Source: a bacterium BRH_c32
GTDB taxonomy: Bacteria; Bacteroidota; Ignavibacteria; Ignavibacteriales; Melioribacteraceae
Reading direction: 5' to 3'
NCBI GenBank assembly: GCA_001516025.1
Contig: LOEU01000024.1
Span: forward strand, 124,001 to 188,000
Length of the DNA: 64,000 bases
Made by a program: the position numbers and the translations under genes. The notes below the pieces were generated by a model. It was not told the origin of the DNA and did not search any database. It saw nothing but the letters and a program-made list of their open reading frames with translations. Shown piece by piece: positions 38,959 through 60,262 of this stretch (position 1 is its first letter; each line of letters starts with the position of its first letter).

Positions 38959-40113
38959 TCAGAATTCAATGACGTTTACTAATTTGCCATCTTCTTTGAG
39001 TCGATTTATGATTAGAGGAATGATTCTTTGACGCGTTAGAATGCCGCTTTGAACAAAACTGATATCATCGCTTGCCGGATTAATTGACTTCCCAAGAAAG
39101 ATATTAATTTTATCTGCGCCATTTAGCATGGAATATAATTCAGTAACGGGACTATTTTTTTCAAACTTAGAAAAGTCTTCTTCCCAAACATTATAAAGTT
39201 GATTAAGTGTAACGGCACCTTCGGTAACCAAATCTATTCCTTCAATAGAATAATCCGGTGGGGCAATCATACTATTAAAACTTGGGTTGATCTCAAATTC
39301 TTTATTAAGTACTTTTGCCGTTATCTTTGCAGTGGTAGCGCCGCATACAATTTTAAGACCCTCACTAGATAGGAATTTTGAGACTAAAGTAAAATCATCT
39401 TCGGGATTGGCAGGAGGACCGCTGAAAAGATTGATTACTCTTCCCTTTCTGCAATGCACGAGAGAAACAGTTAAATCATCTCCCGGTTCATTATGCCAAT
39501 ATTTATATGCTTCATCAATTATAAGCTTTGGAAGCTCAGTAGTTTTAGCACCATTCTTAAGACATTCGGAAATAAACTTATTAACGTTCTCACTCCCCCA
39601 TCCATGAGGAAGACCTTTCCCAAGTCCTGCCTGAGTTATACCATCACTCATTAATAAAAGTCCTTCACCGATAGCAAGTGAGCAATTCCATTCACTTACA
39701 ACACCATCCCCGAATTGATGAGTTATTCCTTTTAATAAAGTGGAATATCTTTTTGCGACAAAAATTGGTTCCGGCATATCGTAAGTAAATACAGAGGCAA
39801 TACCATCATTCAATATTCTGACAGAAGAGAAGAATGCACAAGGCAGATCCTTAGCACGTGCATCTTCCATTGTTTTAATTACCGAACCGAAAGTCTGCCT
39901 AAGAGTAAACCCTGAAGAGACCATCTCTTTCATTCTTGAAATTGTCATTGTAGCTGCGAGATTTGCTTTAAGACCTGAGCCTACACCATCACAAAGAAAA
40001 TGAATAGTAGAGGTATTATCTCTGTAATTACCCGTAACATCTCCATTAGGTTTATTAACCTTTTTGGAAATCTGTTCTGTAATTATTTCTGTGTGGATGT
40101 ATCCCATTTCCAA
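38959..40113 (-). CDS. SpoIIE-family serine phosphatase of the hydrogenase locus
   Basis: This 384-residue protein has an N-terminal PP2C/SpoIIE-type phosphatase domain (TIHFLCDGVGSGLKANLAAT, then EGLLLMSDGITQAGLGK and EPGDDLTVSLVHCRKG, the metal-binding Asp motifs). The C-terminal ~150 residues (LVSKFLSSEGLKIVCGATTA onward) form a domain also found in phosphatases encoded with [FeFe]-hydrogenases. The start overlaps the sensory hydrogenase gene by about 31 bases, implying tight coupling. It probably dephosphorylates an unknown protein in response to hydrogen or redox state. The target is not visible here. Confidence 0.88.
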   Translation of the reverse strand: MEMGYIHTEIITEQISKKVNKPNGDVTGNYRDNTSTIHFLCDGVGSGLKANLAATMTISRMKEMVSSGFTLRQTFGSVIKTMEDARAKDLPCAFFSSVRILNDGIASVFTYDMPEPIFVAKRYSTLLKGITHQFGDGVVSEWNCSLAIGEGLLLMSDGITQAGLGKGLPHGWGSENVNKFISECLKNGAKTTELPKLIIDEAYKYWHNEPGDDLTVSLVHCRKGRVINLFSGPPANPEDDFTLVSKFLSSEGLKIVCGATTAKITAKVLNKEFEINPSFNSMIAPPDYSIEGIDLVTEGAVTLNQLYNVWEEDFSKFEKNSPVTELYSMLNGADKINIFLGKSINPASDDISFVQSGILTRQRIIPLIINRLKEDGKLVNVIEF

Positions 40114-41846: not shown

Positions 41847-41857
41847 TTAATTTCTTT

Positions 41858-43882
41858 TTATGCTCTCTTCACTTCTAGTTTAGCGGTTTCCAATCTAGCA
41901 TTTAGAGTATTAATTGCTTTCTCCAAAGTACATTCGGAAATATGTTCACCTGCAATCATAACGTTAGGTCCCTCACTGCATTTTTCCATACAGAATGTGG
42001 CATTGAGATCCACACAGTGCTTAAGATTCTTCTCTTCGAGATATTTAAGAAGACCAGCCATTAATTTTTGCGACTTTTTCAAATAACAATTAGTACCTAC
42101 ACAAACCTTGATTTCTATCTTTTGGGAATCAATTCCATCAATTAAGCTTAATTCCGAATCAAAAATGCGTTTTCGGTTGTGATATGTAGTATGTAGCAAA
42201 TTATGTGCCTTACTGCTTCCCGGCTCTAAAAGCAGGTTTTTATACAATTCTTGGATATAAGGATTATCTTGCGATTTATGAAGCTGTAAGGTTTTATCAT
42301 TATCGAAAAGACCTTTTGTACGTTCATTCTTTGCTCTTTCATCAAAGATATATGGTTGTCCTGCTCCGCCGATACATCCTCCCGGACATGCCATCACTTC
42401 AACGAGATCATAGCTTACTTCACCACTTTTTATTTTCGTCATTAATTCTTTTGCATTTTTAAGACCGCTTACAATTGCCATATTAACCTTGGCACCATTT
42501 AATTGGATGCTTGCTTCACGAATTGCTTCTGTTCCTCTGATTTCCGAAAACTCTACATGGTTAAGTCGGACACCATTGATTTTCTCATAAGCATATCTAA
42601 GAACTGCTTCGGAAACGCCGCCGCTATTTCCGAAAATTATACCGGCACCGGTCTTGAATCCCATTGGAAGATCGAGCGATTCGGGAGTTAAGTTTTCAAA
42701 ATCGATTCCCGCCTGTTTAATCATTGCAGCTAATTCTTGAGTAGTGATTACGTAATCGACTTCTTTTTCTTTACCTTTAATAAATTCATCTCTATTTGCT
42801 TCCACCTTCTTTGCCGTGCACGGCATGATAGAAACAACTACGATGTCTTCCCTCTTGACATTCAACTGCTCAGGTAGAATTTCTTTTGCCACAGAACCAA
42901 ACATCTGCTGAGGCGATTTGCAAGAAGATAGATTAGGAAGAAATTCAGGGAAATATTGCTCTGCAAATTTCACCCAACCAGGACAGCATGATGTAAAGAG
43001 AGGGAGTTTCTCTCCCGTCGATTTTCTATTTATAAATTCATTTGTTTCTTCAATTACTGTCAGGTCCGCAGCAAATGAAGTATCGAATACTTTATCGAAA
43101 CCGATCATTTTAAGAGCTGCTGCAATCTGCCCGATTAATAAAGTACCCGGTTTCATTCCGAAAAGCTCACCGATTGCCACTCTGACAGCAGGAGCAATCT
43201 GGGCTACTACTGTCTTATTCTGATTATCAATCTCTTTCCATACCTCATTGATTTGGAATTTTGGAGTGATGGCACCTGTCGGGCATACTCTTGCACATTG
43301 CCCACAATCGACGCATTCAACTTTTGCAAGGTCTTTACCAAATGCCGGACTAACGGAAACTTTAGAACCGCGATGAATAAAATCGATAGCGCCGATTCCT
43401 TGAATTTCATAGCACGCTCTAACGCAATCGCCGCATAGGATACATTTATTATTATCTCTTACTAATGCATCGGAAGAAAAATCGATCGGTTTTACTTCCT
43501 CTGTCATTTTGAAACGAACTTTATCCACGCCTAATTTATGTGCTAGATCTTGAAGTTTACAGCTTGCGCTTTTTACGCATGTAGTGCAGCTCTTATCATG
43601 ATTAGCAAGTAGGAGCTCGAGAGCAATTTTTCTGATATCCCGCACTTCTTTAGTATGAGTTTTTACTTTTAGTCCCGCCTCCGGTTTGATAGTACACGAA
43701 GTAACAATTCCTCTTCCTTCGATATCCACAACGCACATTCTGCATGCACCGTAAGTACTTAATTCCGAATGATAACAGAAAGTGGGAATTTCGATATTAG
43801 CACTTCGGATTACTTCGAGAAGATTTCTTTGGTCATTAGATTCTACTTCTCTTCCATTTATATTAATTGTATTCTTTTTCAT
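41858..43882 (-). CDS. hydA: [FeFe]-hydrogenase catalytic subunit HydA (trimeric type)
   Basis: HydA is the catalytic subunit of the NADH/ferredoxin-linked hydrogenase. I start at the ATG ending at 43882, behind GGAG and 2 bases after hydB. The order is: N-terminal [2Fe-2S] (CYHSELSTYGACRMC), the His-ligated [4Fe-4S] (HDKSCTTCVKSASC), two [4Fe-4S] clusters (CILCGDCVRACYE, CVDCGQCARVCP), then an intact H-cluster with TSCCPGW, MPCTAKKVEAN and MACPGGCIGGAGQP. A C-terminal thioredoxin-like [2Fe-2S] domain follows (CVGTNCYLKK, CMEKCSEGPN). About 674 residues. With HydB and HydC it should couple NADH and reduced ferredoxin oxidation to hydrogen formation. Confidence 0.96.
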   Translation of the reverse strand: MKKNTININGREVESNDQRNLLEVIRSANIEIPTFCYHSELSTYGACRMCVVDIEGRGIVTSCTIKPEAGLKVKTHTKEVRDIRKIALELLLANHDKSCTTCVKSASCKLQDLAHKLGVDKVRFKMTEEVKPIDFSSDALVRDNNKCILCGDCVRACYEIQGIGAIDFIHRGSKVSVSPAFGKDLAKVECVDCGQCARVCPTGAITPKFQINEVWKEIDNQNKTVVAQIAPAVRVAIGELFGMKPGTLLIGQIAAALKMIGFDKVFDTSFAADLTVIEETNEFINRKSTGEKLPLFTSCCPGWVKFAEQYFPEFLPNLSSCKSPQQMFGSVAKEILPEQLNVKREDIVVVSIMPCTAKKVEANRDEFIKGKEKEVDYVITTQELAAMIKQAGIDFENLTPESLDLPMGFKTGAGIIFGNSGGVSEAVLRYAYEKINGVRLNHVEFSEIRGTEAIREASIQLNGAKVNMAIVSGLKNAKELMTKIKSGEVSYDLVEVMACPGGCIGGAGQPYIFDERAKNERTKGLFDNDKTLQLHKSQDNPYIQELYKNLLLEPGSSKAHNLLHTTYHNRKRIFDSELSLIDGIDSQKIEIKVCVGTNCYLKKSQKLMAGLLKYLEEKNLKHCVDLNATFCMEKCSEGPNVMIAGEHISECTLEKAINTLNARLETAKLEVKRA

Positions 43883-43884
43883 AA

Positions 43885-45798
43885 TTAAGCTCCGATAATA
43901 ACTGCATTTAATCTGCACGCATCATAACAAGCCATGCACTTAATACATAAGGATTCATTGATAACGTGTGGCTCTTTCCTTATGCCCGATATAGCACCTG
44001 TAGGACATTTTTTTATACATACTCCACACCCTTTGCATTTTTCTTCATCAATCACGGGAGTGAGTAATGCTTTACATCTTCTTGTGGGGCAGCGTTTATG
44101 TTGAATATGTGCAAGATATTCTTCTCTAAAAGAAGCCAATGTTGAGATTACAGGATTTGGTGCAGTTTTACCAAGACCACAAAGTGAACCAAGTTTTACC
44201 GCTCTTGCAAGGTCTTCTAATAATGGAAGAGTTGTTTCGTCTGCTCTTCCTTCAATTATATCATCGAGTAATGAAAGCATCTGCTTTGTGCCTTCGCGGC
44301 ATAGAACGCATTTACCGCATGATTCATTTTGAGTGAACTGCATAAAATATCGTGCAATCGAAACCATACAAGTCTGCTTATTCATTACGACTAATCCACC
44401 TGAACCGATCATTGCTCCGATACCGATTACATTATCGAAATCCAATGGGAGATCGAGATGTTCTTCGGTAAGACATCCGCCGGAAGGTCCGCCGATTTGA
44501 ACTGCTTTGAAACCTTCATTCGATAAGGTGCCATCTTCATTAATCACACCACCGCCGATATTATAAACAATTTCTCGGAGGGTTGTACCGAATGGGACTT
44601 CGATAAGACCGGTATTGGCAACGTGTCCGGTAAGAGCAAAAGTTTTTGTGCCGGGTGATTTTTTTGTTCCCCTATTTGCAAACTCAACTGCTCCAAGACG
44701 CAATATTAATGGGACTGTACTAAGTGTCTCTACGTTATTAATTACAGTCGGCTTATCAAACAATCCGCATTGAGACGGGAAAGGAGGTTTAGGATTTGGC
44801 ATTCCTCTTTGTCCCTGAATGGAGGACATTAAAGCGGTTTCTTCTCCGCATACAAAAGCTCCGGCTCCTTCCATAATTGTGATTCTAAAACTTAGACCTG
44901 AACCAAAAATATTATCGCCGAGTAAACCCATATCTCCAGCTTTTTTAACTGCCGAAAATAGTCTTCGGACAGCCAATGGATATTCCATTCTTACATAGAT
45001 ATAACCTTCATCGGCTCCGATTGCTCGAGCGGCAATCATCATCCCTTCAATCACAGAATGAGGATTTCCTTCCATTATACTTCTATCCATAAACGCACCG
45101 GGATCGCCTTCGTCACCATTACAGATTATATATTTTTTTTCTGATGCTTCTTTAAGAGCCAATTCCCATTTTTTACCTGTTGGGAAACCTCCGCCGCCCC
45201 TTCCTCTTAGTCCGCTAAAAAACACCTCATCACACACATCTTTCGGAGACATTTCAAGATATGCTTTCTGTGCTCCTTCATATCCGCCTAAAGAGATATA
45301 TTCATTTACGTCTTCGGGATTAATCTTACCGCATTTCTTTAATACGAATCTACTCTGTTGATTATAGAAGGGAATCTCTTTAATACCCTTGCATTTATTG
45401 CCGTTACGAGGATCTGTATATACTAAATCTGTAACTACTTTATTCTCGATTAATGTTTCTTTAATTATTCTTTCTACGTCATCTTGCTTTACTTTAACGT
45501 ACATTATAGCATCTGGTTCAATTGTAACGAGTGGACCCATTTGGCAGAAACCTTGACATCCGCTTCCGGATAGCAATACATTATCTTTCTTTTCTTCTTT
45601 CTCTTCTTTTAGTTCGAGAGAAATTAAATGATCAATTCCGTTTTCGGCTAATAGCTTTTCAAATTGGGTGAATACTTTAAGCGAACCATTTGCCACGCAT
45701 CCTGTTCCTGCACAAATTATTATTCGCCTTTTAATAAGACTATACTGCTCAAGATATTCTGATTTTATTTTATCGAGATTAATTAATTGCGGTTTCAT
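43885..45798 (-). CDS. hydB: Hydrogenase NADH-binding subunit HydB
   Basis: HydB is the NuoF-like flavoprotein of the trimeric hydrogenase. The ATG ending at 45798 has AAGGAGG upstream; a longer frame to 45834 lies within hydC. The N-terminal thioredoxin-like [2Fe-2S] domain has CAGTGCVANG and SGCQGFCQMGPL. FMN and NADH binding follow (GRGGGGFPTGKKWE, then NGDEGDPGAFMDRS), then the [4Fe-4S] motif CGKCVLCREG. Two C-terminal ferredoxin motifs close the chain (CKGCGVCIKKCP, CIKCMACYDAC). About 637 residues. It overlaps hydC by 20 bases. Confidence 0.96.
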   Translation of the reverse strand: MKPQLINLDKIKSEYLEQYSLIKRRIIICAGTGCVANGSLKVFTQFEKLLAENGIDHLISLELKEEKEEKKDNVLLSGSGCQGFCQMGPLVTIEPDAIMYVKVKQDDVERIIKETLIENKVVTDLVYTDPRNGNKCKGIKEIPFYNQQSRFVLKKCGKINPEDVNEYISLGGYEGAQKAYLEMSPKDVCDEVFFSGLRGRGGGGFPTGKKWELALKEASEKKYIICNGDEGDPGAFMDRSIMEGNPHSVIEGMMIAARAIGADEGYIYVRMEYPLAVRRLFSAVKKAGDMGLLGDNIFGSGLSFRITIMEGAGAFVCGEETALMSSIQGQRGMPNPKPPFPSQCGLFDKPTVINNVETLSTVPLILRLGAVEFANRGTKKSPGTKTFALTGHVANTGLIEVPFGTTLREIVYNIGGGVINEDGTLSNEGFKAVQIGGPSGGCLTEEHLDLPLDFDNVIGIGAMIGSGGLVVMNKQTCMVSIARYFMQFTQNESCGKCVLCREGTKQMLSLLDDIIEGRADETTLPLLEDLARAVKLGSLCGLGKTAPNPVISTLASFREEYLAHIQHKRCPTRRCKALLTPVIDEEKCKGCGVCIKKCPTGAISGIRKEPHVINESLCIKCMACYDACRLNAVIIGA

Positions 45799-46294
45799 AA
45801 ACATCCTCCTTAATAATCGCATCGATGGCAGCAATAGTTTTTTCGGGTGTCATCAGGGAATAGACTTCTTCATTTATTACTACAACAGGTGCAAGTCCGC
45901 AAGCACCGAGACAGGAAACCATTTCTAATGTAAACATCATATCGTCAGTTGTATGTTTGGTTTCTGAAAGAGCTAATTTTTTGTGAATTGCATCTACTAT
46001 AGGTAAAGAATTTCTTACGTGGCATGCAGTGCCATCGCAAACTTTAATAACATATTTCCCTTTTGGTTCCAGAGCGAAATGGGAATAGAAAGTAGCAACC
46101 CCATAAACCTTGGCAGGGGAAATGCCTAATGAGGTTGCCACAAAAGTCAAAATTTTCTCCGGCAGATATCTATACTCTTCTTGAATTGCCTGAAGAACCG
46201 GTATCAAACAGTTTGCATCATAATGGTTGCGTTCTAGGATTTCGCAAACCTTTTCAAATTTTCGAGCCATTACAGCTTCGTTTTGGTTACTCAT
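45779..46294 (-). CDS. hydC: Hydrogenase [2Fe-2S] subunit HydC (NuoE-like)
   Basis: HydC is the small thioredoxin-like subunit that passes electrons with HydB. The 171-residue protein carries CDGTACHVRNS and CLGACGLAP, the four cysteines of the NuoE-type [2Fe-2S] cluster, plus the N-terminal helical region LIPVLQAIQEEYRYLPEKIL. AAGGAT lies before the ATG. It is the second gene of the rex-hyd unit, 33 bases after rex. Confidence 0.95.
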   Translation of the reverse strand: MSNQNEAVMARKFEKVCEILERNHYDANCLIPVLQAIQEEYRYLPEKILTFVATSLGISPAKVYGVATFYSHFALEPKGKYVIKVCDGTACHVRNSLPIVDAIHKKLALSETKHTTDDMMFTLEMVSCLGACGLAPVVVINEEVYSLMTPEKTIAAIDAIIKEDVYETAIN

Positions 46295-46327: not shown

Positions 46328-46978
46328 TCATTTCAAAGACTCTGCAAGCTTGTGGGTGAGCACTCCGAGTGAATGAGAAAGCTGTGCATTTTCTACAATT
46401 ACAAAATCAGGCACCTTTAGATGAACGGGAGCGAAATTCCATATTGCTTTTATTCCTCCTTCTATCATCATATCGGCTACTTTTTGTGCTTCATCAGCGG
46501 GTACTGTGATTACTCCTATATGAACTTTCATTCTATATGCCATATCAGAGAGCTTTTCTATCGGGAGAACAGTGATATGATTAATGATCTCGCCAACTTT
46601 GGAAGGTTCATTCTCGAAGGCAGCTATTATATTTAATCCATGATCAGAAAAAGTTTTATATCCAAGGATAGCGCTTCCAAGACTTCCGGCACCTACTAAG
46701 AAGGCATCGGTTTGGTTATCCCAATTTAGAGTGTGCTTGATTCCGAAAATCAATTCATCGATGGCAAAACCGAGTTTTGGTTTCCCAATTACACCGGTTG
46801 CGGCTAGGTCTTTACGCACTTGAATGGAATCTAATCCAAGTTCATCGGCTATCATATTACTGGAAGCGAACTCAATTTTTTCACTTTTCAGACGTTTTAA
46901 TATTTCTATATATCTTGGAAGACGTCTTAAAGTTCTTTCCGAGAGAGCTTTTACCTGTTTTTCTAATACCATTTCCAT
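46328..46978 (-). CDS. rex: Redox-sensing repressor Rex
   Basis: Rex represses fermentation and hydrogenase genes until NADH rises. The start at the ATG ending at 46978 (MEMVLEKQVKALSERTLRRL) has AGGTGA upstream; the frame extends further but would enter the promoter. The winged helix is at about 10 to 75 (ASSNMIADELGLDSIQVRKD) and the Rossmann NAD(H) motif is AFLVGAGSLGSAIL. The C-terminal FAPVHLKVPDFVIVENAQL segment is also typical. About 216 residues, the family norm. It directly precedes hydCBA, fitting control of hydrogen metabolism by the NADH/NAD ratio. Confidence 0.96.
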   Translation of the reverse strand: MEMVLEKQVKALSERTLRRLPRYIEILKRLKSEKIEFASSNMIADELGLDSIQVRKDLAATGVIGKPKLGFAIDELIFGIKHTLNWDNQTDAFLVGAGSLGSAILGYKTFSDHGLNIIAAFENEPSKVGEIINHITVLPIEKLSDMAYRMKVHIGVITVPADEAQKVADMMIEGGIKAIWNFAPVHLKVPDFVIVENAQLSHSLGVLTHKLAESLK

Positions 46979-46987
46979 CAATTCACC

Positions 46988-47023
46988 TATCGATAATTTT
47001 TTATCGATATAAATATATCGATA
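46988..47023 (-). promoter_or_regulatory. Triple TATCGATA operator at rex
   Basis: Three copies of the palindrome TATCGATA lie at 46988-46995, 47002-47009 and 47016-47023, each 14 bases from the next. The two right copies form a 24-base perfect palindrome covering the -10 element; the left copy lies in the leader. This is the obvious site for autoregulation, by Rex or another repressor. It does not resemble the usual TTGTGA-type Rex site. Confidence 0.65.
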
Positions 47024-47040
47024 AAATGTTATTGAGTCAA
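47012..47040 (-). promoter_or_regulatory. Sigma-70 promoter of rex-hydCBA
   Basis: On the minus strand TTGACT (47035-47040) and TATATT (47012-47017) are 17 bases apart. The start point would be near 47005, giving a leader of about 27 bases before the rex ATG. Confidence 0.75.
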
Positions 47041-47184
47041 GGTGAAAAGAAAAATTATTTATTGAAATCAATATTAGTTTTAGATATTATGAGCGCTAAA
47101 AATATTAGATGGCGTAAAAAATATAATTTTGGCTCTTACGTATCGAATCATAAATCTATTAAGATATGAATAATTACGATTTGA

Positions 47185-49165: not shown

Positions 49166-49978
49166 TTAAGGACGAAATATCATTTTTGAATGAACAACTT
49201 GTCGATCGCTCTTCCTGATAGTATAAATTGAATTTGGATCACTCCTATCCCAAGCAATTCCCTGCCCTGTATTATTTATAGGAACTGTTTCTACAAGTTC
49301 AAGAATAGAACCCATTTGAGGGAGTTTTAGAGCATAAAGTTCAGGATTATCATGCCCCGTGCAATAAAGCAACCCATCAGGGCCCCAAGAACCGCCTGAA
49401 TTACTCATGATTCCGAATCTTTTTAATACTTCTTCAGGAAAAACCCATGATTCGAGCATCTGCCATTTATCATTAAACTGAACTACGGTAGTCCATCTTA
49501 CATCAGTTTTAGCTTCCTCTTTCCATTTATCATAGTGGGCAAAAGCAGCCCACCAAGTGCCATTATATCGGTCAATCCAAGTGCATGAGCCCCAGCTGAT
49601 ACCTAAGCTTTTTGAATCGAGATGAGTTAGAGTCTTGGCATCCCAAATTTCAATTGAACTTGTCATCGGAATTCCGGGATAATTAGAATGAGCACAATAA
49701 AGTTTTCCTTTATATATTAAACCACTATCGAGATGAATAATTTTACCATTTTTATCCTGTTCCCACTTCTTTACTAATTTACCGGAGGCTTTTTCATATT
49801 TACCGATTTCTTGTGAGCCGATTACATAAATATAGTTTTTATCTACTGCCACTCCTTGACGTGCCTCGGGCATATCAAAGATTTTAATTTCCTTAAATTC
49901 TCTGGTGCCATTTAACACAAACCCCGCAACAAATAATATTGTAATAACAGAAAGAGAAATAATAAATACTTTTTTCAT
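49166..49978 (-). CDS. Beta-propeller-like exported protein
   Basis: The 270-residue protein has an N-terminal membrane/signal helix (KKVFIISLSVITILFVAGFV) and repeated strand units (AVDKNYIYVIGSQEIGKYEK, then GLIYKGKLYCAHSNYPGIPM and GPDGLLYCTGHDNPELYALK), suggesting a periplasmic beta-propeller. No enzyme motif was recognised. It follows the transporter gene by 24 bases, with AAGGAT before the ATG, so it is in the same operon as the organophosphate transporter. A binding or hydrolytic role toward the same substrate is inferred. Confidence 0.7.
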   Translation of the reverse strand: MKKVFIISLSVITILFVAGFVLNGTREFKEIKIFDMPEARQGVAVDKNYIYVIGSQEIGKYEKASGKLVKKWEQDKNGKIIHLDSGLIYKGKLYCAHSNYPGIPMTSSIEIWDAKTLTHLDSKSLGISWGSCTWIDRYNGTWWAAFAHYDKWKEEAKTDVRWTTVVQFNDKWQMLESWVFPEEVLKRFGIMSNSGGSWGPDGLLYCTGHDNPELYALKLPQMGSILELVETVPINNTGQGIAWDRSDPNSIYTIRKSDRQVVHSKMIFRP

Positions 49979-50002: not shown

Positions 50003-51346
50003 TTATTCCTTTGGTTTGACATTCCATACTGTTAGAGCAAGAAGCATCGATAAAACAGAAGCCCCTATCCAAAAATAAAAAGCATTATGAAAATTATAAA
50101 CAGCATTTCCTGCAACCATAATTTTGCTGCTATCAATTAAAAATCCGCTAATCCAATCTTGAGAAGCAGCACCAATATAGCTAAACATACCGATTAATCC
50201 TTTGACAGTACCGGCGGTGGCTTTTGGAGTAATATCCACAGCTATTAGCCCGGCGAGAAAAACTATCAAACCACCAACTCCAAATCCAAATAATCCCATT
50301 GCAACGGTATCCCAAATCATATTTCCGGGAGTTACCAAAAAGAGCATTAACATACCGCCTGTCTGCAAAATACCATAAATTAAGGTAGGGATATTTCTTC
50401 TGGAATTAAATAGTTTATCGGATAAAAATCCGGAGAAAGAAGCACCGATGAAACCCATAATAGGATAAGCACCCATAACAAAGCTTGCATCCATTAATTC
50501 ATAACTTTTAGCTTCTTGAAGATAAAGAATAGCCCAATTATTTATTGCATAACGAGCTATATACATAAGTGCACTGCTGAGACCAAGTATCCAAACGTAT
50601 CGATTTTTTAAAGCCATTTTTTGTAAAGTTCTTACGCTTGCTTCTATCGGCTTACCGGCAGAATAGTCATGTTTGTAATCAGCTACATGAGGCAGACCAT
50701 AAGTCTGAGGGCGATCTGCGAGTGTATGATAAAGTACAAAAGCTACAAAGAGACATATAATGCCGGGACCGATAAAACCGGCACGCCAGCCAAAATAGCT
50801 TACCAAAAATGCCGTTACTACAAAGGTTAATCCTTCTCCTATATTATGAGCCCCTGCCCAAATTCCGTAACGAGTTCCTCTTTCTTTATTACTATACCAT
50901 TGACATATAGAAACTACCGATGGAGCAGAGCCAATGGATTGAAACCATCCATTTACACCCCATAGAATTACAAAAAGATAAAATTGTGTAGTTAGACCAA
51001 AAAGTATATTGACTAAAGCAGAGAAAGCCAAAGAGATTGACATGAATCTTTTAATATTAGCATTATCGGAAAGCATTCCATTAGCAAATTTACCAATAGC
51101 ATAGACATACAATAACACCGAACCTATAATGCCCATTTCTGAAACGGTAAGCACACCGGCATCTAAAATCGGTTTTTTGGCAACAGATAAACCTAAGCGG
51201 CAGGTATAGAAAAAGCCATAACCGAGAATCAAAGATATGAATACACTCCAACGTTTCTTTTCATATTCCTTTTTTATTTTTTCTTTATCAGTAAGAAGTG
51301 GTTTATCCGGGCCCGTTTTAAAGAAATTAATTATTGAAGACAACAT
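50003..51346 (-). CDS. MFS transporter, organophosphate:phosphate antiporter family
   Basis: The 447-residue protein has twelve predicted membrane helices and OPA-family (GlpT/UhpT) features: GYGFFYTCRLGLSVAKKPIL near the N-terminus, GWFQSIGSAPSVVSICQWYS, and RGTRYGIWAGAHNIGEGLTF, where GlpT has the AHN(V/I)G signature. The family exchanges phosphate esters such as glycerol-3-phosphate for inorganic phosphate across the inner membrane. The actual substrate is unknown. GAGGT precedes the ATG. Confidence 0.9.
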   Translation of the reverse strand: MLSSIINFFKTGPDKPLLTDKEKIKKEYEKKRWSVFISLILGYGFFYTCRLGLSVAKKPILDAGVLTVSEMGIIGSVLLYVYAIGKFANGMLSDNANIKRFMSISLAFSALVNILFGLTTQFYLFVILWGVNGWFQSIGSAPSVVSICQWYSNKERGTRYGIWAGAHNIGEGLTFVVTAFLVSYFGWRAGFIGPGIICLFVAFVLYHTLADRPQTYGLPHVADYKHDYSAGKPIEASVRTLQKMALKNRYVWILGLSSALMYIARYAINNWAILYLQEAKSYELMDASFVMGAYPIMGFIGASFSGFLSDKLFNSRRNIPTLIYGILQTGGMLMLFLVTPGNMIWDTVAMGLFGFGVGGLIVFLAGLIAVDITPKATAGTVKGLIGMFSYIGAASQDWISGFLIDSSKIMVAGNAVYNFHNAFYFWIGASVLSMLLALTVWNVKPKE

Positions 51347-51545: not shown

Positions 51546-54212
51546 TTAAAGCTCGAAACGCAATCCTGCCATAAGACTAAATCCATATTCCTCATATTGC
51601 TCTAATCTTGAAATTGATTTAGAAGGATCTCCGTATCTTTCTACTTCTTTCTGATTTGTAAGGTTATTTGCCTGTAAGAATAAGGTAACGAAATTATATA
51701 TTTTCTGACTTGCAGATACATCAAGCCGTAGTTCGGAATCATACCATATATCTGTATATTCATTAGCACCAATTGAACGAATTAGCGGAGCTCTTGCAAC
51801 TAAATTAACTGCAAACGAAAGCCCAATATCTGTATTATCATAGAATATCGAGAAATTAGAAATGTGCTTTGGACTTTGTCCTAATGGCATTTCTCTCCCA
51901 TTATAATTTGTTTTCGAATGGTTGTAAGTATAATTAAAATAGATTCCGAATGGTTTTAGGAAATCAATTCCCAATGAGGAGAATCTTTGATTATATGCCA
52001 CTTCCACTCCAAATACATCTGCATCTCCGCCATTAATAGGTTGAGATACTTTATACTCAACACCATTGATAGTTTGTAATTCAACTGAACTTGCGAGAAG
52101 ATCATTTAATTTTTTATAGAAAACACCTGCACTCAATAGACCTAATTGAGATGTATATTGTTCATATAAAAGATCAATAGAGACCGCTCTTGTTGGAATT
52201 AAATCTGGATTACTTTTTGATATCGTCTTTTCATTATCATCAACAATATATCTAGGAATTAGAGATGAATAACCGGGACGGCTCAATCCGGTTGTGAATG
52301 CTAATCTTAAATTTCTAATATCATCAAATCTATATGTGAAATGGGCTGAGGGTAAGAAATCCGTATAAGAGCCATCATCTTTCTGACCTGTGTTAGCTAA
52401 TGTATAGTCATTTTTTGTATGTTCTACTCTTGCACCAACAAGAACGGATAATTCATTATTGAAAGAAACATCAGACATAACATATCCGGCAATAACTGCT
52501 TCAGAAGCTTCGTAATCATTATCAGTGTATGCCATATCTTCAATAAATGAAGCTAAAGGAAGTGCAGTTGCTTCGGGATCATTCCACACTACATCTTCAA
52601 AACCATAAGTTCCACCTGGTACTTCAATGGTTTTTCCCGAAGACGGTTTTGCATTAAATCGATGTGAATCAAATAAACGATCTTTTAATCTATATTTAGC
52701 ACCTGCCTTGAAAGAACTGACGCGATCAAAAATTGTATAAGGAAGAGTAATATTAATATCTCCGCCTTTATCGCCATCAATGGTTAAAATTTCATCGTGT
52801 CGAAGACGCGATACTTTCATAGGAGCAAGATTTGGGAATGCTTCTTTGCCGGTAATAAAATATAATTCGTCATTTGACCATCCAGTATAAGGGTTTGTTC
52901 TTGCATAAGTCCAATATGTTCTATCGGGTAGTCTTTCTCGGCTTTCGATCCAGAAGAGTGAATAATCTAAATCAAGATTTCCTATTTTATGTTCACCGCC
53001 AAATTTAACTGTGGCTAATCTTTGGTCTTCAATTCGATTTCTTGTTTCTCTATCCTCAGTTTTTTTATTAATTGTAAAAACTGTCTGCCTTCTGATTTCG
53101 TTATCAATATAGGTATTATAATTTGCATTTAATCTGATTCTGTTTTCAGGATTAAAAACATAATCAGTAGCAAGATTAAGCCCGAAGCGATTACGATTAA
53201 CATCATAATCTGTCCATTTGCTTGAAATCAAATCTGTACTTTGATCGTTTGTAAAACGATACTCGCGAAGAATAGAACCACGATTAGTTTTATAAAAGCT
53301 TGAAGCTAATAATACACCAAAACTATTTTCAAAAAATCTTTTTCCAACAAGTGCAGAATAAGATTGGACATCATTTCCCCACTTATTAAATTCTGATCTC
53401 TGCTGATTATATCCACCGCTTGCAACAAAATTATATATTGGTTTTTCAGGAGCGTCTTTAAGTATAAAATCGACACTGCCGCCAAGAGCATCGGCATCCA
53501 TATCGGGGGTTAAAGCTTTTGTTACTACAATTGATTCCATTAGATTTGCCTGAACTAAATCTAATCCAACACCTCTTTCAGCATCGGGATCTGGACTTGG
53601 CACTCTGACGCCATTGACACTAACAGAATTATATTCGGATGAGATTCCTCTTATTTGAATCATTTCACCTTCACCCTGATCAGTAGTGATAGAAACGGAA
53701 GGGATTCTTTGAAGTGCTTCGGCTGCATTTCTATCAGGGAATTTGCTGAACTGTTCCGAAGATACTACATTCTTAATATTAGAAGCATTCTTCTGTTCAT
53801 TAAGTGATTTTGCCTGTCCTCTTGTAAGAACTCCATATACATAAACGTCCTGCATCTCTTCTGTTGTTTCTTTTAATTCAAAATCAACAAGGACACTTTT
53901 ATTAGCAACTACTGTAACAGGTATAACGGACTTTTCATAACCAAGATATGATGCAACAATGTTGTACTGTCCTTCAGGGATTCCCGTAAGTACATATCTC
54001 CCTTCCTTATCGGAGGAGACACCTATTTTTGTACCTTCAAGATGAATATTTGCACTCGGCAAGGATGACTTAGCCGTAAAATCAACCACTCTACCGATTA
54101 TTTTTCCTGTCCCCTGTGCTAAAAGGGACTGTGAAATCATTACTGATATAAAAGTTATTATCAATAAAAATCTCATCGTGGCACTTCGTTTTAAAGTAGA
54201 TCTTAAGAACAT
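51546..54212 (-). CDS. TonB-dependent receptor with carboxypeptidase-like N-domain
   Basis: This is an 888-residue outer membrane receptor. The ATG ending at 54212 has AGGAGG upstream; the signal peptide (RFLLIITFISVMISQSLLAQ) starts about 13 residues in. A CarboxypepD_reg-like domain lies at about 37 to 120 (GRVVDFTAKSSLPSANIHLE), then the plug (NAAEALQRIPSVSITTDQGE, then IQIRGISSEYNSVSVNGVRV), then the barrel, ending GFSLMAGLRFEL. The plug resembles the TonB-Xanth-Caul type of receptor. No SusD partner is present. With its neighbours it suggests uptake of a phosphorylated compound. Confidence 0.93.
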   Translation of the reverse strand: MFLRSTLKRSATMRFLLIITFISVMISQSLLAQGTGKIIGRVVDFTAKSSLPSANIHLEGTKIGVSSDKEGRYVLTGIPEGQYNIVASYLGYEKSVIPVTVVANKSVLVDFELKETTEEMQDVYVYGVLTRGQAKSLNEQKNASNIKNVVSSEQFSKFPDRNAAEALQRIPSVSITTDQGEGEMIQIRGISSEYNSVSVNGVRVPSPDPDAERGVGLDLVQANLMESIVVTKALTPDMDADALGGSVDFILKDAPEKPIYNFVASGGYNQQRSEFNKWGNDVQSYSALVGKRFFENSFGVLLASSFYKTNRGSILREYRFTNDQSTDLISSKWTDYDVNRNRFGLNLATDYVFNPENRIRLNANYNTYIDNEIRRQTVFTINKKTEDRETRNRIEDQRLATVKFGGEHKIGNLDLDYSLFWIESRERLPDRTYWTYARTNPYTGWSNDELYFITGKEAFPNLAPMKVSRLRHDEILTIDGDKGGDINITLPYTIFDRVSSFKAGAKYRLKDRLFDSHRFNAKPSSGKTIEVPGGTYGFEDVVWNDPEATALPLASFIEDMAYTDNDYEASEAVIAGYVMSDVSFNNELSVLVGARVEHTKNDYTLANTGQKDDGSYTDFLPSAHFTYRFDDIRNLRLAFTTGLSRPGYSSLIPRYIVDDNEKTISKSNPDLIPTRAVSIDLLYEQYTSQLGLLSAGVFYKKLNDLLASSVELQTINGVEYKVSQPINGGDADVFGVEVAYNQRFSSLGIDFLKPFGIYFNYTYNHSKTNYNGREMPLGQSPKHISNFSIFYDNTDIGLSFAVNLVARAPLIRSIGANEYTDIWYDSELRLDVSASQKIYNFVTLFLQANNLTNQKEVERYGDPSKSISRLEQYEEYGFSLMAGLRFEL

Positions 54213-54301: not shown

Positions 54302-56053
54302 TTATTTTGTAATTGAAAATTCATCAATTATTTTATCCGTTATATCATAAGCTCTAAAAGAGAGAGTATTCCCTTCAATTGAGAGATGACAGTAATTATA
54401 GTCTCTAAGGAATTTTCCATACATTTTCGGACCGGGATCTTTCTTTTTACTTAATGCTCCACCGCCACCTGCCGAGATTATATAATAAGAATCTTTAATT
54501 TTACTTCTTTCATAACCATGTGAATGTCCCGAAAAATTAATATCCACTTGGTATTGGTCAAATAAAGGGAGGAGATATTTTTCTCCGTCCGGAAATACGT
54601 TACCAAAGGCAAATGGATGAGAAGGGACATGAGAGAGAACAAAAAGCCATTCTGCTTTTTGTGCATCTTCGGATGCTAATTGATTTTTTAGCCAATCATA
54701 TTGTTTGCTCCCCTCTTTAAAGTCTTCATATACTTCTCTTTTAGGATAAGCATTCCGGGGATTATCTATGAAGATGAAAAAACAATTAGAATAGCTAAAT
54801 GAATAATAATTTTCATGTTCTGCATTCGGATAAGAAAAATTTTGATAAAAATAGGGAGAATTTAATTCATGATTACCTATTGCAGAATAAAATGGTTTTT
54901 CTCTTAAAACATTTTTAAGTGGTTCAAAAAATTCCGTATCCCAATCCTCTCTCATACCTCTTTGAACTACATCACCATTTGAAACAATGAAATCAAATTC
55001 TTTCTTCGAAAAATTATTAATTATATCTTTATGCCTTAAAAAATTGAGTTGGTTATCTCCATACAATATGAAACTGAACGGGGAATTATTCTTTGGCGCT
55101 GATTTTAAACTATACCAATCACTTATAATATTTCCCGAATTTACTCGATAGAAATATTTTGTATCAGGTTGTAAATTCTTAATGGCTACTTCATGCAATT
55201 TAGTTGTTTTGTTGGATTTTATAATTTTTGGGTTTTCTTTGTTAGTTCCGAATTCGATTACTGATTCACAATCGAAATTGGTATTCCACATTATTACTGC
55301 GCTATCAGATAAAACACTCTGAAGGTAAGGACCTCGAACGATAGCCGGCTCAATTATTTTTTCGGCATATTTATATTCGCTATAAACTGTAACATCATCA
55401 AAGAAAGAGGCTAAATTACCAAGTGAAGTAAATCCGATTTTTCCGGTCTTGAATTGATTATCGGTTAGAGAAAATATTTTTTCATCGTTCAAATATATAT
55501 TTATTGAATCTTCTTTTAGGCAGATAATTGAATTGAATTTTGCGCTGCTTAAAGGAGAATTTTCTTTTTTTGCAATTTCAATATTTTTACCGGCCACTTT
55601 TTTGTTTAGTAGAATTAATTTTTCTTTGAATGAGATTAAAAATCTGTAATAGTTGTTTTCATCTTGATATCTGAATATTATTCCCATTAAATCGTCATCT
55701 GTATAGATGAAGTTTGTTTCAATAGTAATATTTTTCCAATTTTTATCGCCTGTTGTGATATGAGTACCAAGAAATTTTTCCGGCGAGCCGACATCGGTAA
55801 GCTGAATTAAGAAACCGTTATCAAGTTTCCAATCTGATGGTTCATCTTTCAAATCATCTATTACTTTCCAACCTACTTGTTCTTTTCCTTCAAACTTATC
55901 CTGCCATATAATTTTATTTAAAATTGAGTCTATTGAGTTGGATTGTTGAGCGGATATATTATTGACTTGCGAAATTGAGCAATAGAACAAAATTAAGATA
56001 AAAATTCGAACAACTTTTATTCTTATTATAATCGAATCACAAAAAATCCTTGC
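54302..56053 (-). CDS. Secreted purple-acid-phosphatase-like metallophosphoesterase
   Basis: An N-terminal hydrophobic export segment (VVRIFILILFYCSISQV) is followed by a jelly-roll/DUF1080-like beta domain (about 45 to 230), then a fibronectin-like PAP N-domain (PAIVRGPYLQSVLSDSAVIM). The calcineurin-type catalytic domain has LYGDNQ, SNGDVVQRG, AIGNHE, LSHVPSHP and FSGHSHGYER, the full metal-ligand set. A GTG ending at 56053 has GAGG upstream and is preferred; an ATG 36 bases further upstream (56089) has no such site. It should release phosphate from esters outside the inner membrane. Confidence 0.88.
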   Translation of the reverse strand, partial: ARIFCDSIIIRIKVVRIFILILFYCSISQVNNISAQQSNSIDSILNKIIWQDKFEGKEQVGWKVIDDLKDEPSDWKLDNGFLIQLTDVGSPEKFLGTHITTGDKNWKNITIETNFIYTDDDLMGIIFRYQDENNYYRFLISFKEKLILLNKKVAGKNIEIAKKENSPLSSAKFNSIICLKEDSINIYLNDEKIFSLTDNQFKTGKIGFTSLGNLASFFDDVTVYSEYKYAEKIIEPAIVRGPYLQSVLSDSAVIMWNTNFDCESVIEFGTNKENPKIIKSNKTTKLHEVAIKNLQPDTKYFYRVNSGNIISDWYSLKSAPKNNSPFSFILYGDNQLNFLRHKDIINNFSKKEFDFIVSNGDVVQRGMREDWDTEFFEPLKNVLREKPFYSAIGNHELNSPYFYQNFSYPNAEHENYYSFSYSNCFFIFIDNPRNAYPKREVYEDFKEGSKQYDWLKNQLASEDAQKAEWLFVLSHVPSHPFAFGNVFPDGEKYLLPLFDQYQVDINFSGHSHGYERSKIKDSYYIISAGGGGALSKKKDPGPKMYGKFLRDYNYCHLSIEGNTLSFRAYDITDKIIDEFSITK

Positions 56054-56199
56054 CACTTTTTCCTCAATTTGAATTTTTTGAAAAATCATTTATTAATACT
56101 ATGTCAAATGATATACCACAAAATTATTATAAAAAAATGAGACTAAATGTGAAGTTATTGTTAAGTTTAGAGCTTAAATAAACGATTATTGTTGATAAT

Positions 56200-56239
56200 T
56201 CCCACATAGTTCCCACAGAGTCGTGGGATCCATGTGGGA
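56200..56239. repeat. Four-fold TCCCACA inverted/direct repeat
   Basis: TCCCACA occurs at 56200 and 56211. Its complement TGTGGGA or GTGGGA ends at 56228 and 56239. Copies on each arm are 11 bases apart, and the arms fold into a nested hairpin (outer 8 bp, inner 6 bp). No convincing T-tract is seen on the minus strand. It lies about 150 bases upstream of the phosphatase start and just after the regulator gene, so a protein binding site or mRNA 3' structure are both possible. Confidence 0.7.
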
Positions 56240-56250
56240 TTTTAAAATTA

Positions 56251-59103
56251 TCATAAAACTTCTTTTTCAGAAATAATTTGTTCTAAATATTCGTGGTATT
56301 CCTTTGGTAGGTTTTTAAAAAGAGAATTAACGTTTCCTAAGTTCTCTTTTTCTTTGATGTTTGAGATATAACCTTCAATTTTGAGGATAAGAATATCTAT
56401 AATATTAGTATCTTCGCTCCCTGAGATAATTTTGGCTGATAATCTGATATCAAATTTATAATTACAAAGTGTTTTGTAACAGATTCCCTTTAAGTGATGA
56501 GAGAGGGTGTGCGAACCTTTTTTGTATCCTAGGTCATCCTCACTTAAATCCATTCTAAAATTATTTTCTCTTAGAGTTCTAAGTTTATTTAGTTCATCGG
56601 CAGTAAAAATATTTTTTTCTTCAACAAGAATCTTATTCGTTATGTTGCTATCTCGTTTACCGGATTCAAATGATTTTACTTCATTAGATTTCATTTCAAA
56701 AGGGAATTTATTGTTTATAACTGAACTCCCTTCTATTCTTGCATTTTCATAAGCCACTTCTACCATAGTTTTTAGTTCGCCGATATTTCCTTCTCTGAAA
56801 TCGTGTTCAAAAAGAAAATTTTTAGAGATTTGACTTAATTCAATTGAAGTCTCATTTTTCTTATTGAATCTTTTAATAAAATGTTCAGCTAATAAAAGAA
56901 TATCTGATCTTCTTTCCCTGAGAGGAGGAATAACAATCTTATTAAAACTTCCACCAATTCTTCTATAAAGATCTTTTCTGAAGAACCCTTCTTTAACACG
57001 CGATTCGAGATCAACGTGTGTGGAGAAAAGAAATCGAACATCAGAGATTATTTCTCTCGGCTTACCTGCTGCCGGATGGAAACTAAGTCCATCTACTATC
57101 CTTAAAATCTGTGCTTGAGTATCAAGAGGCAATGAATCAACATCATCAATTAAAAGTGTACCGCCATTACAAAGCTCAATTATTCCAAGTTGACCTGATT
57201 TATCAATACCCTGAATACCATGTCCCTCGCCATATCCGAAAATTTTACCCATAACGATCAATGGATCTGAAGCTGAAAATTCGGCTGCTTCAAATATCAT
57301 AAATGGTTTTTCGCTTCGAGGACTTAACCTATGGATTTGAAATGCCAATGCACTTTTTCCCGTCCCCGTTTCTCCATAAATACAAGTTGGCAAGTTCATT
57401 TGACTTTGCGGGACGATCTGACGGAGAACTCTTAGAAACTGTGGACTGTTACCTATTATCTTATCTTTCCTAATCTCTACCAGAAGCGGATATTCATTTT
57501 CATAGGTCTTTATCTTTTCTTCAAGAATAAAATCAGTTTCGATTTCATATTCATGATGCAGATAGGCAGAGAGTTCTTTCTTCGTAGCAGCTAGATTTAT
57601 ATTAACTGAACCAAGCTCTTTTACTGTCTGATTTATTTTACTATCTTTTTCTTCTAATTCAGCAGCTAATTTTTTAACCCCACGCGAAAGAATATTAATC
57701 TCTTTTATAGGACTATTTATATTATTGATAATATATTCTGCCCTTCCAATTTTAGAAAGAGAAAGACTAAGCTCCATTAATGGTTTTGCAATCCATTTGG
57801 CAATTAAGAAAGAGAAAAAGATTACTCCAAGTGAAATTAGAAGTGCTACAATAATCATCTCCTGCTTTGCTCTTTCATTAATTTCTTCGAGATGCTCCAC
57901 AAGGGATCGCGATTTATCCATAAATTTCTTTAATGAAGTACCTACCGAAACAGCACCAAAAATTCCATACTTATTATAATCTCCCGTTGAATAATATATC
58001 GGGGCATAAGTACGTGTTCTTATAATACCTTCTACTTCAGAATAGATCCCCATCGATTTTACAGTAGTAATACAAGTTTCACCCCTTCTAACCCGTTCTA
58101 TAATTGAACTCATTGGTTCATTACTATAAATATCGATAAGTTTCCAATCCATTTTCGTCAAATTAATAGGCATTATTCCTGTGTCGTATTTCCATTTGGG
58201 TGTATTGGGAGAAAGTTCTTTTACCTGATTACCATCCTTATCAAAGCCTTTAATATCCCATAATTTTTGATGAGCAATTATCCAGCCTTGGTCGTCTATT
58301 ATGTAGTTGTAACTTCCTGCACGATACCTATTTGCCAGTGAATCTCTCGACATAATCTTGAAATCGACAAAATCCAGAAGATGTGCTGCATCTAAGGCGA
58401 TCATTATAATCCCCTTAAAATTACCATTTCCATCTTTTATCTTTTTGCAAAAGCGTACAACTCCATCTAGCTGCTTATTTTTTTCAAGTTGTTCATATCG
58501 ACTTATATACCAACTTGTTAAATGCGAAACATAAATATCACCCGATTGCCTTTTTGTATCTTCAAAATAGGTCTCAGATAAATATTTAGTATTTTTTTTA
58601 TCATTTACATTTTTTAATAAATAATTTGGGATTATTTCCCCATTTATAATTTTTATTTTTTCATTTCCTGATTCATCAATCAATACTAATTCCTTATATA
58701 AAGGAATATTTTTCGAATAAAAATTCACCCAACGAAGATTATTTTTGCCAAATTGCAGGTAACTCTCGGAGCTTGCCGGAATTGCAGATAGACTATGAAG
58801 ATCAGATTCGCATGAATATAAAAAATCGGAAATCCTTCGCGCCAAGTTCTGTGCGTAAGATTGATAGACTTGAGTTGTCTGTTCTTTAATTGTCGATTCG
58901 ATTGTATTATTGGAAAGCTCTTTAGATGAATTTAGACTGGAAATAGACTGCGATATAAGAATAATAATTGGAATTACTGAAAGTGAAGAGAGAGCAATTA
59001 GTATCACCTTGAAAATCGTGGGACCTGACTTAAGGAAATTCCAAAAACTGCTTAAACCTGAATTAATTTTGCCAATTAATTGACGCTTAATATCCTTGCT
59101 CAT
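56251..59103 (-). CDS. Membrane Cache-HAMP-AAA+ regulator lacking GAFTGA
   Basis: This is a one-piece transmembrane regulator of about 950 residues. Helix 1 is near residue 40 (VILIALSSLSVIPIIILISQ), a periplasmic double-Cache-like sensor follows to about 410, then helix 2 (IVALLISLGVIFFSFLIA), HAMP and coiled coil. An AAA+ domain of the sigma-54 activator family comes next, with Walker A GETGTGKSALA, Walker B GGTLLIDDVDSL and RKDLYRRIGG. Where GAFTGA should be it reads GHGIQGI, so contact with sigma-54 is unlikely. The C-terminus has a divergent helix-turn-helix-like region (GSHTLSHHLKGICYKTLCNY). I prefer the second ATG (59103), which has GGA before it; the first ends at 59115. Confidence 0.85.
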   Translation of the reverse strand: MSKDIKRQLIGKINSGLSSFWNFLKSGPTIFKVILIALSSLSVIPIIILISQSISSLNSSKELSNNTIESTIKEQTTQVYQSYAQNLARRISDFLYSCESDLHSLSAIPASSESYLQFGKNNLRWVNFYSKNIPLYKELVLIDESGNEKIKIINGEIIPNYLLKNVNDKKNTKYLSETYFEDTKRQSGDIYVSHLTSWYISRYEQLEKNKQLDGVVRFCKKIKDGNGNFKGIIMIALDAAHLLDFVDFKIMSRDSLANRYRAGSYNYIIDDQGWIIAHQKLWDIKGFDKDGNQVKELSPNTPKWKYDTGIMPINLTKMDWKLIDIYSNEPMSSIIERVRRGETCITTVKSMGIYSEVEGIIRTRTYAPIYYSTGDYNKYGIFGAVSVGTSLKKFMDKSRSLVEHLEEINERAKQEMIIVALLISLGVIFFSFLIAKWIAKPLMELSLSLSKIGRAEYIINNINSPIKEINILSRGVKKLAAELEEKDSKINQTVKELGSVNINLAATKKELSAYLHHEYEIETDFILEEKIKTYENEYPLLVEIRKDKIIGNSPQFLRVLRQIVPQSQMNLPTCIYGETGTGKSALAFQIHRLSPRSEKPFMIFEAAEFSASDPLIVMGKIFGYGEGHGIQGIDKSGQLGIIELCNGGTLLIDDVDSLPLDTQAQILRIVDGLSFHPAAGKPREIISDVRFLFSTHVDLESRVKEGFFRKDLYRRIGGSFNKIVIPPLRERRSDILLLAEHFIKRFNKKNETSIELSQISKNFLFEHDFREGNIGELKTMVEVAYENARIEGSSVINNKFPFEMKSNEVKSFESGKRDSNITNKILVEEKNIFTADELNKLRTLRENNFRMDLSEDDLGYKKGSHTLSHHLKGICYKTLCNYKFDIRLSAKIISGSEDTNIIDILILKIEGYISNIKEKENLGNVNSLFKNLPKEYHEYLEQIISEKEVL

Positions 59104-59230
59104 ATTAAATTCCATCGAAATAGTATTAACAAATGTAACATTACTTTTTGATAAATTAAAAATAGAGCAAAAAATTAAATTTAATTGGGAATATTATTGA
59201 ACGAATTTATTCCTCTAAATAGTATGGGGG

Positions 59231-60262
59231 CTAAAGAAGTTTAGCCCGCCATTTCTCTTCGAGTTCTTTTAGATCGTATTTATAATCGTATTTCGGATCA
59301 TCTTTCGGTTTAAGATATTCCAAGACCTCGAAAACAAGATTATTCTCTCCATACTCTTTAGCATCATTTATTAGATCGTCGCTCCACTCAGTGCCATATT
59401 TAAGTTCGAATCGGAAGCGATTTAGACGAGCTGCCACATTGAGGCTGCTGCCGAGATATACTCTGCCGGTTACTATGTTTTTGATCTGATAAACGCCCAT
59501 TGGAGTAAGAGTGTTTTTATAGTCTCTCTTTATTTGAGTCTTGCTTGTCTTAGGATCGAATCCGCTTGATTGATTAGATTGTAATTTATTATTGTATTCT
59601 AAGTTGTCCCCTTTTGGCACGGCTATATTTTTTGCTTCTGTTGTATTTTTTGGTTCAGTCATTTTTTTTATTTCCTTTCCGATAATGAGTTCGGGTAATA
59701 TGTTTTTGTATTTTTCGTAATTGATCCAATAAATTTGTTTTTCTCTGAATAGATATTTTTCATCGACCATAATTCTTCTTATTGTGCAATGATCTTCATA
59801 AGATTCATTTATTAATCCATCTATTTCCGATTCAAGATATCTTTTTGCAGGATCAAACTTTTTTATAAATTCTTCGATAATAATTAAACGCTTCTTATGT
59901 TGAATGGGTAATTTTGTAAGTGTTCCATTTTTAAAGAAAGTATTGATCACTTTGCTTTTTGAATCTTTTGATATTTTTTCAAAATGAGTAGTATCTGTTT
60001 TTCCAAGATTCAATAGTTCTTTAAGAGTTCTGTCAAAAATCGCTCTATTCAGGGAATAGTTTACATAATACTGCTCTTTTTCACTTTTGACTATCCCTGC
60101 TTTTTCCATCTTTTTTAGATGAAACGAGATAGTAGATATCGACAAATCGAGCAATTGTGCCAATTCTTCCACATATCTCGATTTTTGATATAACGCCTTA
60201 ATTATACTGATTCGGGAAGAATCGCCTATAATTTTGATGATTTCTAACTGATTTTGAGCCAT
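59231..60262 (-). CDS. ArsR-type HTH / DUF2087 / GIY-YIG fusion protein
   Basis: Three domains are visible in 343 residues. Residues 1 to 80 are an ArsR-type winged helix (IIGDSSRISIIKALYQKSRY, then AQLLDLSISTISFHLKKMEK). Residues about 120 to 190 match DUF2087 (RYLESEIDGLINESYEDHCT, then IRRIMVDEKYLFREK). After a Q/N/K-rich linker, about 262 to 343 is a GIY-YIG nuclease domain (GVYQIKNIVTGRVYLGSSLN, then AARLNRFRFELKYG, with Glu in LEEKWRAKL). DUF2087-GIY-YIG proteins exist, but function is unknown. It has its own promoter with flanking repeats. Confidence 0.88.
   Translation of the reverse strand: MAQNQLEIIKIIGDSSRISIIKALYQKSRYVEELAQLLDLSISTISFHLKKMEKAGIVKSEKEQYYVNYSLNRAIFDRTLKELLNLGKTDTTHFEKISKDSKSKVINTFFKNGTLTKLPIQHKKRLIIIEEFIKKFDPAKRYLESEIDGLINESYEDHCTIRRIMVDEKYLFREKQIYWINYEKYKNILPELIIGKEIKKMTEPKNTTEAKNIAVPKGDNLEYNNKLQSNQSSGFDPKTSKTQIKRDYKNTLTPMGVYQIKNIVTGRVYLGSSLNVAARLNRFRFELKYGTEWSDDLINDAKEYGENNLVFEVLEYLKPKDDPKYDYKYDLKELEEKWRAKLL

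Follow-up and report, generated by a model that had tools for sequence, protein, structure and literature searches.

Does a membrane-bound AAA+ protein of the sigma-54-activator type still act on sigma-54 polymerase when its GAFTGA loop has been replaced? The question is raised by a regulator gene on the minus strand of a 64,000-nucleotide stretch of contig LOEU01000024.1 (hereafter the window) from the Melioribacteraceae bacterium BRH_c32.

A sensor and a AAA+ domain in a single chain

The gene is read from 59115 to 56251. A first-pass annotation of the window had placed it at 56251–59103; the open reading frame is real, but 59103 marks its second methionine (residue 5) and the frame starts at 59115. 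Its features, in window coordinates, are as follows.

56251..59115, minus strand: regulator gene, TM-dCache-TM-HAMP-AAA+-C-terminal helical domain (954 aa; seven orthologues)
58951..59016, minus strand: first transmembrane segment, residues about 34–55 (hydropathy)
58186..58893, minus strand: dCache_1 sensor, residues 75–310 (Pfam)
57631..57864, minus strand: TM2 and HAMP-like linker, residues about 418–495 (hydropathy; PF00672 in two orthologues)
56674..57459, minus strand: sigma-54-activator type AAA+ domain and lid, residues 553–814 (Pfam, alignment)
57352..57375, minus strand: Walker A GETGTGKS, intact
57205..57225, minus strand: L1 loop GHGIQGI in place of GAFTGA, two residues longer than canonical
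57139..57156, minus strand: Walker B LLIDDV, with the catalytic Glu changed to Asp in all orthologues (DE to DD)
56773..56790, minus strand: sensor II GNIGEL, with the Arg of GNVREL changed to Gly/Ala
56254..56622, minus strand: C-terminal all-helical domain, residues 832–954 (predicted structure, pLDDT 91; hhalign)

Pfam finds Sigma54_activat (PF00158) at residues 553–720 (E 5e-34, 117.8 bits against a cut-off of 20.2) and AAA_lid_14 at residues 733–814. The match to dCache_1 at residues 75–310 (E 6e-11) lies slightly under the curated cut-off. Hydropathy gives two hydrophobic segments, at residues about 34–55 and 418–440. HAMP (PF00672) is called in two of three aligned orthologues (best E 1.6e-5); the window copy has no Pfam call for HAMP, and the corresponding region aligns. 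The fusion of Cache, HAMP and AAA+ in one chain, which had been proposed from the translation, is borne out by these domain searches and by hydropathy. Directly upstream of the regulator, the gene at 59231–60262 on the minus strand encodes a single protein in which an ArsR-type HTH is joined to DUF2087 and GIY-YIG, the GIY-YIG match being just under its cut-off.

Replacement of GAFTGA and a reworked ATP site

The L1 loop reads FGYGEGHGIQGIDKSGQLG (residues 631–637, window 57205–57225) where the canonical bEBP sequence is FGxxxGAFTGAxxxxxG. The replacement of GAFTGA by GHGIQGI reported in the first-pass annotation can thus be read directly in the sequence. The orthologue set comprises four Melioribacteraceae loci (the window, L108 in genome G004, L110 in G045 and L111 in G391) and three from the candidate phylum KSB1 (L109 in G482, L140 in G522 and L141 in G529), all full-length. 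In all seven, from two phyla, the loop is conserved as [GN]HG[IL]xGI[DN]K and is two residues longer than the canonical one, so that it is neither a chance occurrence nor the sporadic mutation that had been considered earlier.

The family is rare, being found in 4 of 79 Melioribacteraceae genomes and 3 of 82 genomes in the KSB1 set; within 391 genomes of the class none was seen beyond the window's family. A first contig scan with the single regulator protein as query gave no confirmed relative, and a DNA pattern for GYGxGHGI matched only family members and three unrelated short ORFs.

The ATP site differs from that of the sigma-54 bEBPs (the NtrC, PspF, NifA and RtcR class) at several further positions. 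The PF00158 AAA+ domain, Walker A and both arginine-finger positions are shared, FRKDLYRR aligning to FREDLYYR. In contrast, Walker B carries DD, the NCxAL segment with the switch Asn has become (E/T/G)A-EF with a three-residue insertion (NCGAL to FEAAEF-like), and GNVREL of sensor II has become GNI[GA]EL across the orthologues. The orthologues also share an insertion of two residues behind the arginine-finger segment. Since the changes in the loop and the ATP site are common to all, they are the mark of an established subfamily in which the ATP site was reworked, not of a point mutation. The structure model of the AAA+ domain (pLDDT 58.5 overall) is too poor to give the structure of the L1 loop.

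About 21 canonical bEBPs are encoded in the window's genome according to a PF00158 scan, and those with a readable loop have GAFTGA or near variants such as GSFTGA, GSYTGA and GAFTDA. In a AAA+ tree a long stem (2.9 changes per column) separates the regulator clade from the other bEBPs, and with this stem the tree gives no answer on the parent bEBP group. As GAFTGA and three ATP-site features depart from those of the class, we do not file the regulator as a canonical sigma-54 bEBP; judged by its sequence it stands outside that group and probably works like a member of it.

GAFTGA is called invariant in sigma-54 activators, to the extent that genome surveys filter on it (PMC12316311, PMC3162934), and its Phe and Thr are reported to be nearly irreplaceable (PMC3162934). 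Together with the three further altered features of the ATP site, this weakens a sigma-54 reading. The regulator might instead be independent of sigma-54, using its AAA+ domain for nucleotide sensing and oligomerisation and activating or repressing a housekeeping-sigma promoter by way of the inverted repeat described below, as with TyrR, VpsR and the NtrC proteins of Rhodobacter and Caulobacter. These, and HupR, likewise lack GAFTGA, bEBPs of this kind are known to work with sigma-70 (PMC10274813, PMC3162934), and here GAFTGA has gone along with the Walker B Glu, the switch Asn and the sensor-II Arg. However, in the GAFTGA-less NtrC proteins that act with sigma-70 the L1 loop is deleted (PMC10274813), as it is in VpsR/YplP, whereas here it is kept, lengthened and conserved in two phyla, next to a promoter that looks sigma-54-like. 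Another published case is DVUA0100 of Desulfovibrio vulgaris, which we compare by description only. Its motif is strongly diverged (GVATGV), it is described as having an extended N-terminus whose sensing domain is unknown, and regulon analysis predicts that it still activates sigma-54 promoters (PMC4641369). DVUA0100 keeps the TG of GAFTGA and the loop of the regulator differs, but it sets a precedent by which a divergent motif is compatible with a sigma-54 reading.

An inverted repeat and a -24/-12-like box follow the gene

The gap between the regulator and the next gene contains the following features.

56197..56242, no strand: nested inverted repeat, candidate enhancer/operator, with four half-sites 11 bp apart
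56211..56228, no strand: repeat core TCCCAC-N6-GTGGGA, the sole such core in the window's genome
56103..56118, minus strand: -24/-12-like box TGGTATATCATTTGAC, in which the GC of the -12 element reads GA

An inverted repeat follows the regulator gene in all seven loci, with an N6 spacer in six and N5 in L141, and lies within about 60 bp of the stop codon except in L108 (about 260 bp). Genome-wide, the strict N6 core has a single copy in each of the window's genome, G004 and G391, always in the post-regulator gap, and two copies in G045, one of them in that gap; the repeat was absent from 14 control gaps of the same loci. Other genomic matches to the repeat that we checked (in G016, on contig C60 of G045 and in G028) are in or beside unrelated genes.

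Lying just 3' of a stop codon, the repeat could also terminate transcription or form an RNA hairpin in the mRNA of the regulator, with the -24/-12 match due to chance and the operon read from another promoter. However, no T-run follows the repeat in the gap sequences that were read, and it is the arms that are conserved across the two phyla while the loop, spacer and outer half-sites vary, with 11 bp helical steps in several loci. We therefore rejected the terminator reading; the wider explanation, which also has to meet a -24/-12 pattern beyond that of all shuffles (below), is very improbable.

The boxes in the other Melioribacteraceae loci are TGGAATGTAATTTGCA (L110), TGGCATATAGTTTGTT (L108) and GGGTATAGTATTTGTT (L111), the last lacking the first T such that it would not stand out alone; that of L109 is TGGCACTCTTATTGCT. 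A model of repeat plus box was built on these five loci and then tried on the two held out, where it found TCCCACGAATTCGTGGGA and TGGCACATTTATTGTT in L140, and TCCCAC-N5-GTGGGA and TGGCATTTTTTTTGCC in L141. TGG-N8-TTG is present in six of the seven gaps, while none of 3000 dinucleotide-shuffled sets had it in more than three; [TG]GG-N8-TTG is present in 2 of the 14 control gaps. From the repeat to the GG is 88–107 bp in six loci and 248 bp in L141. In five loci scanned for it, no -33/-7 promoter pattern precedes the phosphoesterase gene.

Considered alone the box of the window is weak, scoring 10 of 15 with a shuffle p of 0.14; its -12 element is TTGA, and it is only 28 nt from the annotated ATG of the phosphoesterase, which leaves almost no leader. 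Over the set, the -12 element is TTGT or TTGA in four of the seven promoters. All five genomes checked have rpoN. Canonical -24/-12 sites number 12 in the window's genome, against 1 for the reversed-pattern control, and are not enriched genome-wide in G391. Counts of degenerate TTGD promoters exceed the reversed pattern in some genomes; as this does not hold in G391 or G004, they were left out as evidence. G391 has rpoN, yet no TGGCAY-N5-TTGCW site occurs in the whole of that genome.

The layout of repeat and box is, on its sequence, that of a sigma-54 enhancer and promoter, and beside a bEBP-like gene it makes a sigma-54-type activator the best reading. The weak box of the window, that of L111 and the lack of enrichment in G391 count against it. 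The first-pass annotation had proposed that the protein acts on something other than sigma-54; with repeat and -24/-12-like box in 7/7 loci and rpoN in 5/5 genomes, the evidence, circumstantial as it is, does not favour this. Because the -12 element of the window is non-consensus, a sigma-70 or partner-dependent mode has to be kept in view. For the regulator independent of sigma-54 this element is a point in favour, but a -24/-12-like box downstream of the repeat in every locus, three with the complete TTGC (L109, L110 and L141), counts against such a regulator, and we regard it as unlikely.

The operon suggests phosphoester scavenging

Beyond the gap, four genes follow the regulator on the same strand.

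54302..56089, minus strand: calcineurin-like metallophosphoesterase, opening the operon, with an N-terminal domain as in purple acid phosphatases
51546..54212, minus strand: TonB-dependent receptor
50003..51346, minus strand: MFS organophosphate transporter (UhpC/PgtP/GlpT-like)
49166..49978, minus strand: conserved operon gene, family unknown

The order regulator, metallophosphoesterase, TonB receptor, UhpC/PgtP/GlpT-like MFS is kept in Melioribacteraceae, where some operons add GDPD, conserved unknown and GntP genes. In KSB1, L109 has the regulator, metallophosphoesterase and TonB receptor in order before the contig ends, and in L140 and L141 the TonB receptor comes directly after the regulator. 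Overall, a TonB receptor gene follows in 7/7 loci, the phosphoesterase is directly 3' of the regulator in 5/7 and the MFS gene is found in all six loci long enough to show it. The protein encoded at 49166–49978 has no Pfam or NCBIfam match, and of the other six orthologous operons four encode a homologue. This gene content suggests phosphoester hydrolysis and uptake, that is, phosphoester scavenging, and a phosphoester-related ligand for the regulator.

Elsewhere in the window, ORFs at 38959–46294 on the minus strand form a ferredoxin-, NADH-dehydrogenase- and [FeFe]-hydrogenase-like cluster, beside which is a Rex-like regulator at 46328–47071; both were named by eye, the cluster from its translations.

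A canonical bEBP could also be the protein that contacts sigma-54, with the regulator as its DNA-bound partner or antagonist, either on the enhancer or in mixed AAA+ rings with a soluble GAFTGA activator, the mixed rings being our own suggestion. The genome has canonical bEBPs in number, and a degraded ATP site is what one might expect of a regulatory subunit. Over the seven loci, however, no canonical bEBP gene adjoins the operon, the one exception being L110, where an NtrC-type gene lies some kilobases upstream; a lone conserved repeat beside the gene for the regulator itself suggests one DNA-binding protein dedicated to that site; and the regulator clade is set apart from other bEBPs by its long stem. 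We consider such a partnership improbable.

Relatives of the sensor and of the C-terminal domain

The sensor module (residues about 33–510) is homologous to Cache-HAMP histidine kinases at 28–35% identity. Its closest homologues, in 12 loci examined (L112–L123), are kinases that adjoin NtrC-type AAA+ regulators, and the loop of these is GAFTDA or GAFTNA in 11/11 read. In such pairs of Melioribacteraceae a phosphorelay carries the signal to a separate regulator, whereas in the window protein sensor and AAA+ domain are one chain.

Structure prediction of the C-terminal region, which the first-pass annotation had called for, returned a confident all-helical AlphaFold fold (pLDDT 91), but a PDB fold search with the model found no counterpart. 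In profile comparison by hhalign the domain pairs strongly with the tails of CHASE2-TM-AAA+ proteins (99.6%, E 1.8e-24) and weakly with the Fis-type tails of the remaining bEBPs (10.9%); the CHASE2-protein tail has an HTH match of its own at 56%. Given the weak Fis-type match, DNA binding by the domain, as had been suggested earlier, is put no higher than likely.

The CHASE2-like transmembrane AAA+ proteins (L060–L083 and L142, the sensor label being assigned by eye) are a broad family with a shared C-terminal domain ending NLPxxYHxYL. They occur in the same phyla as the regulator and resemble it in the homologous C-terminal domain, ending (K)NLPxxYHxYL, and in membrane anchoring. They differ in that their periplasmic sensor is CHASE2-like where that of the regulator is dCache_1, only the C-terminal domain being shared, and in that they keep a canonical or near-canonical GAFTGA, with variants such as GAFTNA and GSFTNA, as well as DE and the sensor-II Arg, all of which the window regulator has lost. 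Both the GAFTDA/GAFTNA regulators that adjoin the sensor's kinase relatives and the GAFTGA-type loops kept by the relatives of the C-terminal domain favour the sigma-54 reading.

A probable membrane-bound activator with a substituted contact loop

Beyond the AAA+ core, the regulator has in common with the sigma-54 bEBPs a probable DNA-binding C-terminus, a candidate palindromic enhancer and a -24/-12-like box; it differs in its membrane anchor and periplasmic sensor. The reading that we favour, with moderate confidence, is that of a membrane-bound one-component sigma-54-type activator with a substituted contact loop. The architecture, its conservation, the gene order, the DNA sites with their spacing and the presence of rpoN are observed; that the regulator binds the repeat and that the box is a sigma-54 promoter we infer from sequence, as we do activation as opposed to repression, the nature of the ligand and the function of the L1 loop.

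According to this scheme, the periplasmic dCache would sense a ligand, probably a phosphoester or a breakdown product, and the signal would pass through TM2 and HAMP to the AAA+ ring. The C-terminal helical domain would hold the ring at the TCCCAC-N6-GTGGGA site beside the regulator's own gene, from where it would act on sigma-54 RNA polymerase at the -24/-12 box and so switch on the metallophosphoesterase, TonB receptor and organophosphate transporter operon. The lengthened [GN]HG[IL]xGI loop would replace GAFTGA by other chemistry, with a hydrophobic residue and the following glycine kept. The Walker B Asp and the missing switch Asn would make ATP hydrolysis slow, perhaps matched to a weakened -12 element. 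In PspF, substitutions of E108, E108D among them, lower the ATPase activity, but the proteins can still engage the closed complex and prefer promoters that are pre-opened (PMC4132715). By analogy it is possible that, with a natural DD and TTGT or TTGA at so many of the promoters, slow hydrolysis is matched to a looser promoter lock. The full proposal, that a membrane-bound AAA+ family in two phyla activates sigma-54 polymerase with neither GAFTGA nor the glutamate switch, using GHG[IL]xGI, slow hydrolysis and a -12 element that is often TTGT or TTGA, is a tentative one and may well not hold in every part.

If it is true, surveys that filter on GAFTGA would miss this family. A conserved family of GAFTGA-less activators beside a candidate enhancer and box would show that the chemistry of the loop is replaceable, and would offer a natural test of the separate contributions of L1, the Walker B Glu and the -12 lock. 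It would also unite in one polypeptide transmembrane sensing and the remodelling of the promoter, tasks that its relatives divide between a kinase and a separate regulator.
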